Under the pieces are notes generated by a model that saw only the letters and a list, made by a program, of their open reading frames with translations, was not told the DNA's origin and ran no database searches. A DNA stretch of 64,000 nucleotides from Ensifer adhaerens. Lineage in GTDB: Bacteria; Pseudomonadota; Alphaproteobacteria; Rhizobiales; Rhizobiaceae. The stretch spans positions 1,054,001 to 1,118,000 of the forward strand of contig NZ_CP015880.1 of NCBI RefSeq assembly GCF_000697965.2, given 5' to 3'. Positions 27,378 to 38,885 of this stretch are shown here, piece by piece (position 1 is the stretch's first letter; every line of letters starts with the position of its first letter). The position numbers and the translations under genes are program-made.

Positions 27378-28706
27378 CGAGGCGAGGGAAGGCAGGATGA
27401 CCGCCGTGACTGAAAATCAGGTGCAGGCCGCAGAGCGGCCTGAAAAGTCCTCCAGCCGACCCTTTTCCGCCTTCGAGCGTATGGTGGCGTGGCGCTACCT
27501 GCGCTCCAGACGCAAGGAAGCCTTCATCTCTGTCATCGCCGGCTTCTCCTTCATCGGCATCATGCTCGGCGTGGCGACGCTGATCATCGTCATGGCGGTG
27601 ATGAACGGCTTCCGCACCGAGCTCATCTCCCGCATCCTCGGCATCAACGGCCACATGATCGTCCAGCCGATCGACGGTCCGCTCAACAATTATCCGGAAC
27701 TGGCGACCAAATTTTCGGGCGTCAAGGGCGTCACCATGGCGATCCCGATGGTCGAAGGCCAGGTCCTGGCGCAAGGGGTCGGTGACAGCTCGACCGGTGC
27801 GCTGGTGCGCGGTATCCGCGCCGACGACTTGAGCAAGATGAAGTCGGTTTCTGACCACATCCAGTCCGGCGATCTCGTCGGCTTTGCCTCCGGCTCTGGC
27901 GTGGCTATCGGTTCGCGCATGGCCGAGCAGCTTGGCATAACGGTCGGCGGAACGATTACGCTGACCTCGCCCAACGGCGACGTGACACCGCTCGGCATGA
28001 ACCCCCGTGTGAAGGCCTATACCGTCTCGGCGATCTACGAGATCGGCATGTCGGAATATGATTCAACAATCATCTTCATGCCGCTTGAAGAGGCACAGCT
28101 GTTCTTCAACGCCGAGGGACTGGTTCAGTCGATCGAGATCTTCGTCGAACATCCAGATGTCGTTGAGGAGTTGCGCCAGCCGATCGAGGACGCGGCCGGA
28201 CGGCAGATCTTCATCACCGACTGGCGCGACCGCAACAAGACCTTCTTCTCCGCGCTCCAGGTGGAGCGCAACGTGATGTTCATGATCCTGACGCTAATCG
28301 TGCTGGTCGCGGCGCTCAACATCATCTCCGGCCTGATCATGTTGGTGAAGGACAAGGGCAGCGACATCGCGATCTTAAGGACCATGGGCGCGACCTCCGG
28401 CTCGGTGATGCGCATCTTCTTCATGACGGGGGCTGCAATCGGCGTCGCCGGAACGGTCGCGGGCGTGGCGCTCGGCGTCGTCGTCTGCCTCAACATCGAA
28501 TCCATCCGACAGTTCTTCTCCTGGATCTCCGGAACGACGCTGTTTAGCCCAGAGCTTTATTTCCTCAGCCAGCTTCCGGCCGACATGAACGCAGACGAGA
28601 CTGCACTCGTCATCGTCATGGCGCTGACCCTTTCCTTCCTCGCCACGATCTTTCCGGCCTGGCGCGCCTCGCGCCTCGATCCGGTGCAGGCCCTGCGTTA
28701 CGAATG
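27331..28706 (+). repeat. Direct repeat, copy A: proS 3' end plus lolC
   Basis: A segment of about 1.38 kb that recurs at 29513-30888 at a constant offset of 2182 bases with no indels. It runs from the last 15 codons of proS to the end of lolC. The flanks differ completely on both sides. Mismatches are clustered near the ends and around 28250-28310; the stretch 27790-28200 is almost identical. Confidence 0.93.
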
Positions 28707-28723: not shown

Positions 28724-29410
28724 ATGAATGCGCGCGTGGCACTGCAGCTTTCCGGCGTCGAACGACACTATGGGGAAGGCGAGACGTTCCTTTCCATCCT
28801 CAAGGGTGCGGACTTCACGCTGAGAAGCGGCGAGACTGTGGCGCTGGTCGCGCCGTCAGGGACCGGAAAATCGACGCTGCTGCATGTGGCGGGTCTGCTG
28901 GAACGCCCCGATAGCGGCGAGGTGCTGGTCAACGGGGTGTCCTGCGGCGGGCTCAATGACGATCGGCGCACGGCGATCCGTCGCAACGAGATCGGTTTCG
29001 TCTACCAGTTCCACCACCTGTTGCCTGAGTTCTCGGCGCTCGAAAACATCATGATGCCGCAGTTGATCGCCGGTCTGCCCAAGGCGGAAGCCGCGGAGCG
29101 GGCTGGGGCGTTGCTCGACTATATGCGCATCGGCCACCGCGCCGATCACCGCCCGGCGGAACTTTCCGGCGGCGAGCAGCAGCGCGTTGCGATTGCGCGT
29201 GCCGTTGCCAACGCGCCGCTCGTTCTCCTTGCCGACGAACCGACAGGCAATCTCGATCCGGAGACCGCCGGTTATGTCTTCGAGGCGCTGGAAGCGCTGG
29301 CACGGCAGTCGGGCCTCGCGGCATTGATCGCGACGCACAATCACGAGCTCGCCGGACTGATGGATCGGCGGGTGACGATCGAAGACGGCAAGGTCGTCGA
29401 GATGAAGTGA
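28724..29410 (+). CDS. lolD: Lipoprotein-releasing ABC transporter ATP-binding protein LolD
   Basis: This 228-residue ATPase drives lipoprotein release. It has Walker [10 protein letters not shown], the Q-loop in [21 protein letters not shown], signature [14 protein letters not shown], Walker [13 protein letters not shown] and the switch histidine in [10 protein letters not shown]. The first Walker A residue is Ala rather than the usual Gly, which should be tolerated. It lies between two near-identical lolC copies, 16 bases after the first. The gap to the second copy is 168 bases and includes a proS remnant. Confidence 0.95.
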
Positions 29411-29512: not shown

Positions 29513-30888
29513 CGATGATCGTCGAAGCGGTGATCGACAAGCTGGTCGCAACGAAGTGACGAGGCGAGGGAAGGCAGGATGACCGCCGTGACTGAAAATC
29601 AGGTGCAGGCCGCAGAGCGGCCTGAAAAGTCCTCCAGCCGACCCTTTTCCGCCTTCGAGCGTTTGGTGGCGTGGCGCTACCTGCGCTCCAGGCGCAAGGA
29701 AGCCTTCATCTCTGTCATCGCCGGCTTCTCCTTCATCGGCATCATGCTCGGCGTGGCGACGCTGATCATCGTCATGGCCGTCATGAACGGCTTCCGCACC
29801 GAACTCATCTCCCGCATCCTCGGCATCAACGGCCACATGATCGTCCAGCCGATCGACGGTCCGCTCAACAATTATGCCGAGCTTGCGACTAAATTCTCGG
29901 GCGTCAAAGGCGTCACCATGGCGATCCCGATGGTCGAAGGCCAGGTTCTGGCGCAAGGGGTCGGTGACAGTTCGACCGGCGCGCTGGTGCGCGGCATCCG
30001 CGCCGACGACTTGAGCAAGATGAAGTCGGTTTCTGACCACATCCAGTCCGGCGATCTCGTCGGCTTTGCCTCCGGCTCTGGCGTGGCTATCGGTTCGCGC
30101 ATGGCCGAACAGCTTGGCATAACGGTCGGCGGAACGATTACGCTGACCTCGCCCAACGGCGACGTGACGCCGCTCGGCATGAACCCGCGTGTGAAGGCCT
30201 ATACCGTCTCGGCGATCTACGAGATCGGCATGTCGGAATATGATTCAACAATCATCTTCATGCCGCTTGAAGAGGCACAGCTGTTCTTCAACGCCGAGGG
30301 ACTGGTTCAGTCGATCGAGATCTTCGTCGAACATCCAGATGTCGTCGAAGAGTTGCGCCAGCCGATCGAGGATGCGGCCGGACGGCAGATCTTCATCACC
30401 GACTGGCGCGACCGCAACAAGACTTTCTTCTCGACGCTCGAGGTCCAGAGCAACGTGATGTTCATGATCCTGTCGCTGATCGTGCTGGTCGCGGCACTCA
30501 ACATCATCTCCGGCCTGATCATGCTGGTGAAGGACAAGGGCAGCGACATCGCGATCCTGCGGACCATGGGCGCGACCTCCGGCTCGGTGATGCGCATCTT
30601 CTTCATGACGGGGGCTGCAATCGGCGTTGCCGGAACGGTCGCGGGCGTGGCGCTCGGCGTCGTCGTCTGCCTCAACATCGAATCCATCCGACAGTTCTTC
30701 TCCTGGATCTCGGGAACGACGATATTCAGCCCTGAGCTCTATTTCCTCAACCAGCTCCCGGCCGATATGAACGCAGACGAGACCGCACTCGTCGTCGTCA
30801 TGGCGCTGACCCTTTCCTTCCTCGCCACGATCTTTCCGGCCTGGCGCGCCTCGCGCCTCGATCCGGTGCAGGCCCTGCGTTACGATTG
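29513..30888 (+). repeat. Direct repeat, copy B: proS remnant plus second lolC
   Basis: Second copy of the segment at 27331-28706. Carry-over of the proS tail in front of lolC shows that this copy derives from the proS-lolC junction, not the reverse. It is a tandem duplication with lolD enclosed between the copies. Confidence 0.93.
29515..29559 (+). pseudogene. Remnant of the proS 3' end
   Basis: Fifteen codons ending in TGA read MIVEAVIDKLVATK, against [14 protein letters not shown] at the real proS terminus (27333-27377). The preceding sequence is unrelated to proS. It marks the left edge of the duplicated segment and has no function of its own, except perhaps carrying the ribosome-site region for the following lolC copy. 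Confidence 0.88.
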
Positions 30889-31057: not shown

Positions 31058-31525
31058 TCAACGCCTGATCAGACCGCCGCGATAGTCGAGCTCGTAGGCT
31101 TCCTCGCCGTCGACGAAGATGACCTCATGCCCGGAAAAATGTGAGGTGTCGCCGCGGCTGTTGTCGATGTAGTAGCCATGGGCGTGCCGGAACTCCGTGC
31201 CGCCGAGGAAATGCCGCTTGTCGCGGTACATCGCCTGAAGCGCCGCCCTGATGACGACGCCTGCCTTTTCGCCGTTTATGAGGTCAGGTCGGATGATCCG
31301 GCCGAAGTAGTTCATCGCCCAGTGCGGCTCGTCATTCTGCCACACGGTCTCCTGGCCTGCGAAATCGGTCCCGCCGAAATAGCTGTCGAGGTAGCGCCAG
31401 CTATCCCGCTCGTAGCCGATGTCGTGGGAACCCGGGCGTGACGACGGTCGCTGCCCGCCGCCGCCGACATAGGTTTTTGATTTGGCTTCAACGATGAATT
31501 CTCTGAGTGCTTCGAGCGCGGCCAT
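31058..31525 (-). CDS. DUF5680 domain protein
   Basis: This 155-residue soluble protein opens FIVEAKSKTYVGGG, then RPGSHDIGYERDSWRYLDSYFGGTDFAGQETVWQ and WAMNYFGRI. This pattern of aromatic and glycine positions matches the DUF5680 family, often seen alone or fused behind an XRE-type helix-turn-helix. Here no DNA-binding part is present. It faces the end of the second lolC copy, with about 170 bases between the two stops. The function is unknown. Confidence 0.8.
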   Translation of the reverse strand: MAALEALREFIVEAKSKTYVGGGGQRPSSRPGSHDIGYERDSWRYLDSYFGGTDFAGQETVWQNDEPHWAMNYFGRIIRPDLINGEKAGVVIRAALQAMYRDKRHFLGGTEFRHAHGYYIDNSRGDTSHFSGHEVIFVDGEEAYELDYRGGLIRR

Positions 31526-31608
31526 GATTGTTCCTCATACGTTCGCGCCGGAGGATGTCGTGATCCGCTGAAGTTGTAAAGAACAAATAGAGAACAATCA
31601 CCCGGTTA

Positions 31609-32178
31609 TTACAGGCCGCACGCCTTCTGCCCGCGATCGTCGCTCCAGTCCTTGAGAAGGATGAGCTCGCCTTTCGCGGTGATTGGCGTGTCGTTCGATT
31701 TGCCCTTGCCCGTCAGCACGTTGAGGTCGCATTGCGCGGTGTTGTCCGGATCGAGCGTATCGTAGGACGAGTAGGTGTAGCCCGCCACCACGAAGTCGAA
31801 GTTGCGATAGGCGACCGTCAGCTTCTGTTCCCAGCGGTCGCGCCCGATGGCATCGTTCTGACTGGTGATGAGCAACGAGCCGCTCGGCAGCGCCTCGATC
31901 GACGGCGCTTGGCCGACGAGTTCGAACTGACCCCAGACCTTGTTCGGAATGGCCGACTTTAATGCCAGCGCGCCGTTGTCGCCGGTGAGATAGAGATAGA
32001 TGCCGTTGTCCTCGTCGCTGCCTTGGGCGGGTCGTACGATGAGCGCGAGATCCTGGCTCCCGTCCTTGTTCCAGTCGCCGGTCGCCGCCGAGACGATGCG
32101 GGCGGGGTCTATCGTCTCTGCTGCGGAGACGGTGGTCGGAAGCAGGATCAGCAAGGGGAGAATCAGGCGTGCAAGCAT
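31609..32178 (-). CDS. Periplasmic protein of unknown function with FG-GAP-like start
   Basis: This 189-residue protein has a Sec signal peptide (MLARLILPLLILLPTTVSAAE). The mature part starts DPARIVSAATGDWNKDGSQDLALIV, a calcium-binding-like DxNxDGxxD sequence of the kind found in FG-GAP/VCBS repeats, but only once. Two cysteines near the C-terminus (QCDLN, KACGL) may form a disulphide. The ATG at 32178 is chosen because it begins the signal peptide; the frame is open 19 codons further. I recognise no characterised homologue. It diverges from the 28-codon gene on the other strand. Confidence 0.75.
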   Translation of the reverse strand: MLARLILPLLILLPTTVSAAETIDPARIVSAATGDWNKDGSQDLALIVRPAQGSDEDNGIYLYLTGDNGALALKSAIPNKVWGQFELVGQAPSIEALPSGSLLITSQNDAIGRDRWEQKLTVAYRNFDFVVAGYTYSSYDTLDPDNTAQCDLNVLTGKGKSNDTPITAKGELILLKDWSDDRGQKACGL

Positions 32179-32306
32179 GTCGGAGCGCTCCGCGTGGTCG
32201 TTCCTCTTGATATGCGGGCACCGCGCTTTCCTCAAGCGGCTTCGTCGTCAGTTAACCTGCATTCGGGCGCGATGTTAACCATCGTGAACAGAATGCCTGT
32301 GCACTG

Positions 32307-32331
32307 CTTGACGCGTGAACAAAAATGGAAC
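32307..32331 (+). promoter_or_regulatory. LexA (SOS) box with overlapping promoter element upstream of a 28-codon gene
   Basis: A perfect alphaproteobacterial LexA site, GAAC-N7-GAAC, lies at 32317-32331. A good -35 hexamer CTTGAC starts at 32307, ten bases before it, so LexA would bind in the -35/-10 spacer and block RNA polymerase. The small gene at 32365 starts 33 bases downstream with its own strong ribosome site. The -10 element is not obvious. Confidence 0.7.
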
Positions 32332-32364
32332 AAAGTAAAAACATAACGGAAAAGGAGCCATGTT

Positions 32365-32451
32365 ATGACTGATTTTGTTCGTGACCTCGCCGCCTTCGCG
32401 TCGATGAGCCTGTTCATCGCAAGCATCTCTTTCATTGCGCTCGGCCTCTGA
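32365..32451 (+). CDS. 28-residue single-pass membrane peptide, predicted SOS-induced (SidA-like)
   Basis: The frame reads MTDFVRDLAAFASMSLFI and continues ASISFIALGL to a TGA. The first eight residues are charged or polar, and residues about 9-28 form one hydrophobic helix that could span the membrane. A strong ribosome site (AGGAG, 32353-32357) sits 7 bases before the ATG; an overlapping ATG at 32360 stops after two codons. A perfect LexA box and a -35 element lie just upstream. Caulobacter SidA, a 29-residue SOS-induced inner-membrane peptide that blocks division, has the same size, topology and control, but sequence homology has not been tested. dnaE starts 146 bases downstream. That it is translated is well supported; its function is inference. 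Confidence 0.72.
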   Translation: MTDFVRDLAAFASMSLFIASISFIALGL

Positions 32452-32596
32452 AGGCGGGCGTCAACATCTTCTCTCAAGCACCTCCGCAAAGCGTCTCATC
32501 CCCGTTGAATAAGGGGGACGACATGCCAGGGGAATCTGGACATGACGGGCGATAAACGGGATATCCTTCCGACTGGACAGGAATCAGGGTGCGACA

Positions 32597-36094
<3,498 letters not shown>

Positions 36095-37572: not shown

Positions 37573-38865
37573 TCATGGATCGCGTTTTCTGGTGCCGAAA
37601 GTGTAGCCGGTTTCGACGCTCGCCTTGCCGAATTTGTCGCGCAGCTTGTTGATCGCGTCCTCGGCCGCAGCGCGCCTGGTGGCCGCGGGATCGACGAGAT
37701 CGGGCGGATCGGCGAGATCCGGGGCGGAGAGATCGCTGACGCCGATGCCGATCAGCCGATACTTCGTTCCGTCCGCCTCTTTTTCGAGAAGCTGCAGGCC
37801 GATGCGGAAAATGCGGTCGGCAAGGCGGGTAGGGCTATCCAGGCGCCGATTGCGGGTGCGGATCTTGAAGTCGGCGGTTTTGAGCTTGAGAACGACCGTC
37901 TGGCCGGCGAGTTCCGACTTTCGCAGCCGGTGGGCCACTTGCTCGCTGAGGCGCCGCAGATGCGTGACCAGGTCGTCATAGCGCGCGATATCGTCGTTGA
38001 ACGTCGTCTCTGCGGAAACGCTCTTGGCTTCGCCGTCGATTTCGACCGCTCTCTCGTCGAGCCCGCGCGATAGGCGAAAGAGCCGCTGCCCCATGGTGCC
38101 ATAGCGCCGCATCAGGTCGCCTTCTTCCATGGTCTGCAATTGCCCGATCGTGCGCACGCCGTCACGCTCCAGCGTGGCGGCAAAGGCCTTGCCGACGCCC
38201 CAGATCAGGGTCACCGGCTTCTCGCGCAGGAACTCCAGCGCCTCGGCTTGGCCGATGACGGAAAAGCCGCGCGGCTTTTGCAGGTCGGACGCCACCTTGG
38301 CGAGAAACTTGCAATAGGAGAGGCCGACCGAGACGGTGATGCCGACTTCCTGCTCGATCCGGCGGGCGAGCCGCGCAAGCGTGCGTGCCGGTGGATCGTG
38401 ATGCAGTCGCTCCGTGCCGCTGAGTTCGAGGAAGGCTTCGTCGATCGACAGCGGCTGCACCAGCGGGGTCAGTTCCTGCATCAGCGTGCGCACCTCGCGG
38501 CTGACGCGGGCGTATTTCTCCATATTGGGCTTGATGACAATGGCCTGGGGGCAGGCTTCCAGCGCCTTGAACATCGGCATGGCCGAGCGCACGCCGTGAA
38601 TGCGGGCGACGTAGCAGGCGGTGGAGACCACACCGCGCTTGCCGCCGCCGATGATCACCGGCTTGTCGGCAAGCTCCGGGTTGTCGCGCTTCTCGATCGA
38701 GGCATAGAAGGCGTCGCAGTCGATGTGCGCCAGCGTCAGGTCATAGAGCTCCGCATGCCGCAGAATGCGCGGGCTGCCGCAGGCAAGGCAGCGCCGCACC
38801 GACGCCGCCTGTTCCTTGAGGCAGTCGCGGCAGAAGCCTGGAGAGTGAGCAGCGCTGTCGGGCAT
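37573..38865 (-). CDS. dinB: DNA polymerase IV (Y family) with N-terminal zinc-ribbon-like extension
   Basis: This 430-residue translesion polymerase has catalytic motifs [18 protein letters not shown] and [10 protein letters not shown], followed by the thumb helix-hairpin-helix ([20 protein letters not shown]) and the little-finger domain. Residues 1-33 form an extension with Cys12, Cys15, Cys26 and Cys29 (CxxC-x10-CxxC), a zinc-ribbon pattern absent from E. coli DinB. The C-terminal [13 protein letters not shown] is typical of alphaproteobacterial Pol IV. A perfect LexA box begins 6 bases upstream of the ATG, which implies SOS control and a very short leader. Confidence 0.94.
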
Positions 38866-38870
38866 ATCGG

Positions 38871-38885
38871 GAACAAATATTGAAC
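38871..38885. promoter_or_regulatory. LexA (SOS) box immediately upstream of dinB
   Basis: GAAC-AAATATT-GAAC, the exact alphaproteobacterial LexA consensus GAAC-N7-GAAC, lies 5 bases from the dinB start codon (38863-38865). On the dinB strand it reads GTTC-N7-GTTC. It occupies the place where a ribosome site would normally be. Confidence 0.85.

Follow-up and report, generated by a model that had tools for sequence, protein, structure and literature searches.

In this study, we followed up a 28-codon ORF located upstream of dnaE in Ensifer adhaerens, within a 64,000-nt stretch of contig NZ_CP015880.1 (referred to below as the window), and we conclude that it is most probably the rhizobial orthologue of sidA, coding for a LexA-repressed division inhibitor that acts as SidA does. 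We put the probability of this reading at roughly 0.8. It is based on the conservation of a LexA box in front of the ORF, on an alignable 29-aa peptide in a second bacterial family, on the slot before dnaE that the two peptides share, and on the traits reported for Caulobacter SidA, which is described as a 29-aa SOS-induced inner-membrane peptide that binds FtsW and inhibits division (PMC4211646).

The peptide gene upstream of dnaE

The locus in the window is composed as follows:

32307..32312, + strand: probable −35 element CTTGAC, read in the sequence just 5′ of the LexA box
32317..32331, + strand: LexA box GAAC-N7-GAAC, GAACAAAAATGGAAC, a perfect match
32328..32342, + strand: second LexA box with one mismatch, GAAC-N7-AAAC, overlapping the first and 11 nt downstream of it; a perfect match at this place is seen in some relatives
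32352..32357, + strand: Shine–Dalgarno sequence AAGGAG, 7 nt before the ATG
32365..32451, + strand: ORF for a 28-aa single-helix membrane peptide, MTDFVRDLAAFASMSLFIASISFIALGL, read as a member of the SidA family (ATG at 32365, stop ending at 32451)
32597..36094, + strand: dnaE, DNA polymerase III alpha subunit, the conserved downstream neighbour of the 28-aa ORF

The perfect LexA box, the CTTGAC element, the ribosome site and the 28-codon ORF all lie where a previous sequence-only reading of this DNA had placed them, and its statement that the ORF is located upstream of dnaE also holds, since dnaE starts on the same strand 145 nt after the stop codon. The gap between the LexA box and the ATG is 33 nt. 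With its 28 residues and a mean Kyte–Doolittle hydropathy of 2.16 over residues 8–26, the peptide agrees in length and hydropathy with a SidA-type protein of approximately 29 residues and one transmembrane helix. A generic promoter scan of positions 32150–32650 returned no site. Searches of Pfam and NCBIfam with the peptide were likewise negative, and PHROG gave a single weak match (E 0.073).

An S. meliloti record shows the gene order proline-tRNA ligase, lolC-type permease, ABC ATPase, the unlisted peptide position and dnaE; no CDS is given at the peptide position in its gene table, which is known to be incomplete, and a 28-codon gene is easily missed in annotation. A Ribo-seq study of S. 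meliloti 2011 describes a translated ORF, sORF25, in the 5′-UTR of dnaE1 (Hadjeras 2023, PMC10117765). In the corresponding S. meliloti stretch (L214), the 28-mer alone among the ORFs is preceded by what we consider a good ribosome site, and sORF25 is thus very likely the S. meliloti orthologue of the 28-aa peptide. SEP6 of S. meliloti, which is reported in the same paper as a peptide of <30 aa in the membrane pellet (PMC10117765), may be the 28-aa peptide or another peptide. The words SOS and LexA do not occur in the main text of that paper.

Conservation of frame, box and position in rhizobia

Judged by chance counts, a single LexA box is weak evidence: the window contains five perfect boxes against 2.15 expected, at least five such boxes were also obtained in 7 of 100 shuffled windows, and the genome-wide count is 217 perfect boxes compared with 156 for the reversed pattern. 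The decision therefore rests on conservation. A box of this form also stands approximately 50 nt upstream of the lexA match in this genome.

Using the region 32260–32600 as query, matches were obtained in 17 of 41 genomes, 16 of them belonging to the genus of the window and one to another. Among these 17, the eight most distant genomes had a main match covering only the segment from 32302, 32307 or 32308 to 32451, that is, the promoter and box together with the ORF, and in seven of the eight another short match lies close to dnaE. A rhizobial profile built from four peptides then found the peptide, at E≤0.01, in 118 of 297 Rhizobiaceae genomes and 42 of 109 genera, with no match at this threshold in the other 179 genomes. 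The search yielded 124 places, of which 117 (in 111 genomes) entered the box count and seven were read separately. A perfect box was present between −80 and −20 at 95 of the 117 places and, with one mismatch allowed, a box was present at 109, compared with 0 and 19, respectively, of 468 control stretches (four per place); all seven remaining places, one genome each, have a perfect box as well. Counted by genome, a perfect box is missing from 16 of the 111, and 2 do not have even a box with one mismatch. At 23 of the 117 places there are two perfect boxes within 80 nt, and at 91 TTGAC, searched as a loose pattern, precedes the box on its 5′ side. The frame and its box are thus conserved across rhizobia outside the genome of the window, as the sequence-only reading required for its proposal. 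Beyond the Rhizobiaceae, in one genus (loci L361, L362 and L364), 27-aa orthologues are encoded before dnaE with no box within one mismatch at −110 to −15, which may reflect a loss or change of control by the SOS system there.

A second collection, of named genomes, gave 80 matches to a peptide pattern, 61 of which were confirmed. These loci were picked by the peptide pattern and not by the box, and all 61 encode 28 aa and have a perfect box; a pair of perfect boxes within 80 nt is found at 21 of them. They span Sinorhizobium/Ensifer (including S. meliloti, S. fredii and S. medicae), Rhizobium, Shinella, Pararhizobium, Mycoplana, Metarhizobium, Agrobacterium and other Rhizobiales, and as they share some genomes with the profile-search set, the two sets are not independent. 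In the latter, the ORF has exactly 28 residues at 103 of 117 places, with starts set by rule where the profile match began elsewhere than at a start codon.

The sequence variation of the ORF is that of coding DNA. In a set of 26 distinct Sinorhizobium-type ORFs, pS is 0.46 and pN 0.070, giving a dN/dS of approximately 0.10, and heterozygosity at codon positions 1, 2 and 3 of 57 distinct ORFs is 0.25, 0.05 and 0.47. Stops are present in frame +1 of all 57 ORFs and in frame +2 of 55. When 31 sequences were compared at fixed offset, conservation was mostly around 0.9 inside the ORF and 0.40–0.48 after the stop, with a value of 0.43 beginning ten nt past the ORF, a drop to which indels contribute. 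A chance ORF standing beside a chance box is ruled out by this coding signature together with the conservation and the box controls.

The position before dnaE is conserved too. Of 87 Rhizobiaceae loci, 75 have dnaE downstream of the peptide gene, as do all 61 named loci, on the same strand in all 136 cases, and dnaE is likewise downstream in 30 of 30 loci of another set (L033–L062). lolC lies within the examined stretch in 53 of the 87 and 59 of the 61 loci, as well as in many loci of the family f102 described below, though other genes may separate it from the peptide gene, as they do in the window. With dnaE as its neighbour, a plasmid or mobile gene was rejected as an explanation; five matches labelled 'plasmid' are records of 3.5–4.6 Mb, and the one examined has dnaE adjoining the ORF.

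Probable relationship to SidA of Caulobacter

Outside the Rhizobiaceae, a narrow profile (A2) matched 29 of 397 genomes of the order, 16 of them in other families. Of 17 loci from outside the Rhizobiaceae (L072–L088), 14 adjoin dnaE and 13 of these are preceded by a perfect box no more than 160 nt away; the peptides are 29–32 aa long where the match begins at the start codon. At E≤0.05, which is permissive enough to let in chance hits, a broader profile (A5) matched 56 of 171 genomes of the order. Its 27 new loci include 25 next to dnaE (24 of them on its strand); a perfect box was present at 20 of the 27 and, with one mismatch allowed, a box was present at 22. The rhizobial profile A3 was matched at E≤0.05 by 11 of the 387 genomes of a class-wide sample, and only one of the nine new places examined, which belongs to the same order (L179), was boxed and plausible.

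Profile A3 was also run on 109 genomes of one further family, f102, where 44 matched at the loose threshold of E≤1. Thirty of these matches were examined. Twenty adjoin dnaE, and all 20 have a 29-aa ORF, 14 with a perfect box and six with one-mismatch boxes only; the other ten are not beside dnaE, and nine of them lie within frames of 116 aa or more. As dnaE was left unexamined until the f102 peptides had been picked, its adjacency can serve as independent confirmation. From 17 f102 peptides we then built profile A4, which at E≤0.01 matched 180 of 199 f102 genomes, representing 19 of 21 genera; its source genomes match by construction, and 11 of the 19 genomes without an A4 match belong to one genus. 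Comparison of the rhizobial and f102 profiles by hhalign gave probabilities of 94.1% (E 1.3e-7) and 95.0% (E 4e-8), in alignments that run from M1 over 21–22 columns, although this comparison is not independent, because the f102 peptides behind A4 had been found with A3. The rhizobial peptide is thus homologous by profile match and alignment to a 29-aa SOS-type peptide of f102, and the slot before dnaE on the strand of dnaE is the same in rhizobia, other Hyphomicrobiales and f102.

We infer that f102 corresponds to the Caulobacteraceae and that its 29-mer is SidA of Caulobacter. The family assignment makes use of the holdfast protein family HfaA as a marker, which among 14 control genomes matches only Caulobacter vibrioides. 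Of 387 class genomes, 13 have an HfaA match: ten belong to three other families and three to f102, which has the top score by a wide margin but also one match below the cut-off. This distribution slightly lowers our confidence in the assignment. In C. crescentus, sidA (CCNA_02004) and dnaE (CC1926) are presumably side by side, as we take it from the gene numbering. The two designations are those given for sidA in PMC10769358 and for dnaE in PMC1839093.

If the f102 29-mer is SidA, the rhizobial peptide resembles it in size (28 versus 29 aa), in having one membrane helix and a LexA-boxed promoter, in its place before dnaE, and in an alignable N-terminal two-thirds of roughly [RKHQ][DE]xx[AS][FL]xSxxxF[VI]. 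This supports the proposal of the sequence-only reading that the peptide is a counterpart of SidA in size, topology and control, where control by LexA is predicted at the level of the box. However, the C-terminal halves differ, with FVWM set against FIAS/FVAS and the rhizobial tail being without FVWM, and the contact with FtsW could therefore differ as well. The arrangement of the boxes is also not the same. The rhizobial box is mostly at −47 to −53, with the second, where present, mostly 11 nt further on and overlapping, whereas f102 shows a one-mismatch box, often reading GAAC-N7-GAAT, mostly at approximately −50 to −58, and frequently another box 17–18 nt further on.

Small SOS-induced membrane proteins that block a late step of division are also known as YneA, ChiZ and SosA, for which FtsW is reported as the shown or modelled target (PMC13396833); YneA and ChiZ differ by description from the 28-aa peptide in having a LysM domain. 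DidA of C. crescentus is likewise a small single-helix division inhibitor acting after damage, though it has 71 aa, is SOS-independent and works through FtsN, according to PMC4211646.

Proposed function, alternative explanations and related loci

According to the model that we favour, LexA would hold the peptide promoter shut until DNA damage leads to RecA-stimulated cleavage of LexA and the promoter opens. The product would be a 28-aa inner-membrane peptide with a short polar head, probably cytoplasmic and containing a conserved R6-D7, followed by one helix. By analogy with SidA, the peptide would bind FtsW within the septal peptidoglycan complex of FtsW, FtsI and FtsN and keep this complex inactive until repair is finished. 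We infer LexA repression, membrane topology, the FtsW target and division arrest in rhizobia from these likenesses, and the analogy with SidA strongly suggests a division-inhibitor role. dnaE1 may be co-induced from the peptide promoter.

This last point is shared with an alternative explanation, that the ORF is an upstream ORF or leader peptide regulating dnaE1, or nothing more than the leader of a dnaE1 transcript induced by the SOS response, with a peptide that is inactive in trans. dnaE is the same-strand downstream neighbour in most loci examined, no terminator-like site was found between the two genes in the window, the spacing in f102 is very short (approximately −15 to 137 nt with a median of about 5 nt in 19 loci), and sORF25 is named among possible uORFs (Hadjeras 2023, PMC10117765). 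However, neither a conserved regulatory spacing nor a conspicuous RNA structure was found between the ORF and dnaE1: over 166 Rhizobiaceae loci the estimated spacing varies from 74 to 1733 nt around a median of 145, and the RNA fold is not unusual (z 0.23). Selection acts on the amino acid sequence, as seen from the dN/dS value, and the fixed-offset conservation falls past the stop, both of which argue for a functional peptide rather than a leader. Furthermore, related peptides are found in prophage-like loci away from dnaE, and SidA itself is reported to be active when expressed from a plasmid (PMC4211646). We therefore consider it improbable that the ORF serves only as a leader.

A second alternative, that the peptide is an SOS-induced membrane toxin which, like TisB or DinQ, depolarizes the cell and does not inhibit the divisome, has in its favour the size class, the single helix and the control by LexA. 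TisB falls into the same size class as the 28-aa peptide. DinQ is described as a 27-aa, LexA-controlled peptide (PMC3567139). However, the long processed leader of such type I toxins was not found here; the 33 nt between box and ATG leave little room for a leader like that of dinQ or tisB, and the unremarkable fold is against it as well. A search of Rfam gave no credible match (one chance hit, E 0.94), although an antisense RNA absent from Rfam would be missed by it. As both sequence and locus match the 29-aa peptide of f102 instead, we regard a toxin of this kind as very improbable.

If the gene is sidA, deleting a few codons in S. meliloti would suffice to test for a damage checkpoint in rhizobia, and a family that the literature consulted describes as a system of Caulobacter becomes widespread in the Alphaproteobacteria. 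Since the peptide looks like the same gene as SidA, the checkpoint is probably an old and widely distributed one, not a peculiarity of Caulobacter, and the many orthologues constitute a natural mutagenesis series for the peptide–FtsW contact. The literature matches listed showed no named factor by which rhizobia arrest cell division in response to DNA damage, which is a weak negative, and no title among the matches listed, mostly from the open literature, concerns a rhizobial SidA, though Modell 2011 may itself treat conservation; a five-letter peptide string used to look for the letters of SidA had no match in literature text.

Some relatives are located away from dnaE. Four loci (L129, L136, L143 and L168) encode related 29-mers with no box within one mismatch. 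According to Pfam searches with three N-terminal pieces of neighbouring proteins, L136 and L143 adjoin genes for a YqaJ-type recombinase and NinB and L143 has in addition an SSB gene, and L168 has an SSB-like neighbour as judged by eye. A single genome (G307) encodes three 44-aa relatives beginning MIRDLAALASI (L138, L140 and L162), without a LexA box. In Rhizobium phage RHph_TM3_3_14B, a 34-aa protein of the repressor–integrase region (QIG68682.1; L343, 2989–3093) resembles SidA-type peptides. It was the best of 187 small-ORF candidates from a 6-kb stretch, nested starts included, with E 2.4e-4 against A4 and 0.011 against A3, while tblastn gave only E 2 and its PHROG matches are weak. Pattern searches of viral contigs produced 67 and 25 matches, none of which was confirmed, and a search of phages and plasmids with an f102 peptide had no match. 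Taken as they stand, these loci are suggestive of carriage of SidA-family peptides by phages and prophages. A wider scenario, which we offer tentatively and with more doubt than confidence, is that SidA is an ancient alphaproteobacterial checkpoint peptide that stayed in one SOS unit with dnaE throughout the time in which Caulobacterales and Hyphomicrobiales diverged, where a single LexA promoter would couple division arrest to the supply of dnaE1, and that LexA-free copies were captured by temperate phages to hold host division.

Further LexA boxes and a duplication were observed in the window. A DUF5680 gene on the − strand (region 31058–31595, start at 31525) has the box GTTC-N7-GTTC 67–70 nt before its start. 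Of 25 Sinorhizobium-type loci whose start could be read, the window included, 24 have this box, which is followed by TTTACA in the rows shown; the gene is probably an SOS gene, judged from these sequences. A perfect box on the − strand at 38871–38885 ends 5 nt before the start of a dinB-like gene (37573–38865; DNA polymerase IV, named from sequence), which is probably an ordinary SOS gene. Two lolC-like copies (27397–28704 and 29579–30886), which are 97.5% identical, flank lolD (28724–29407), whereas the S. meliloti stretch contains a single lolC-type and ATPase pair.
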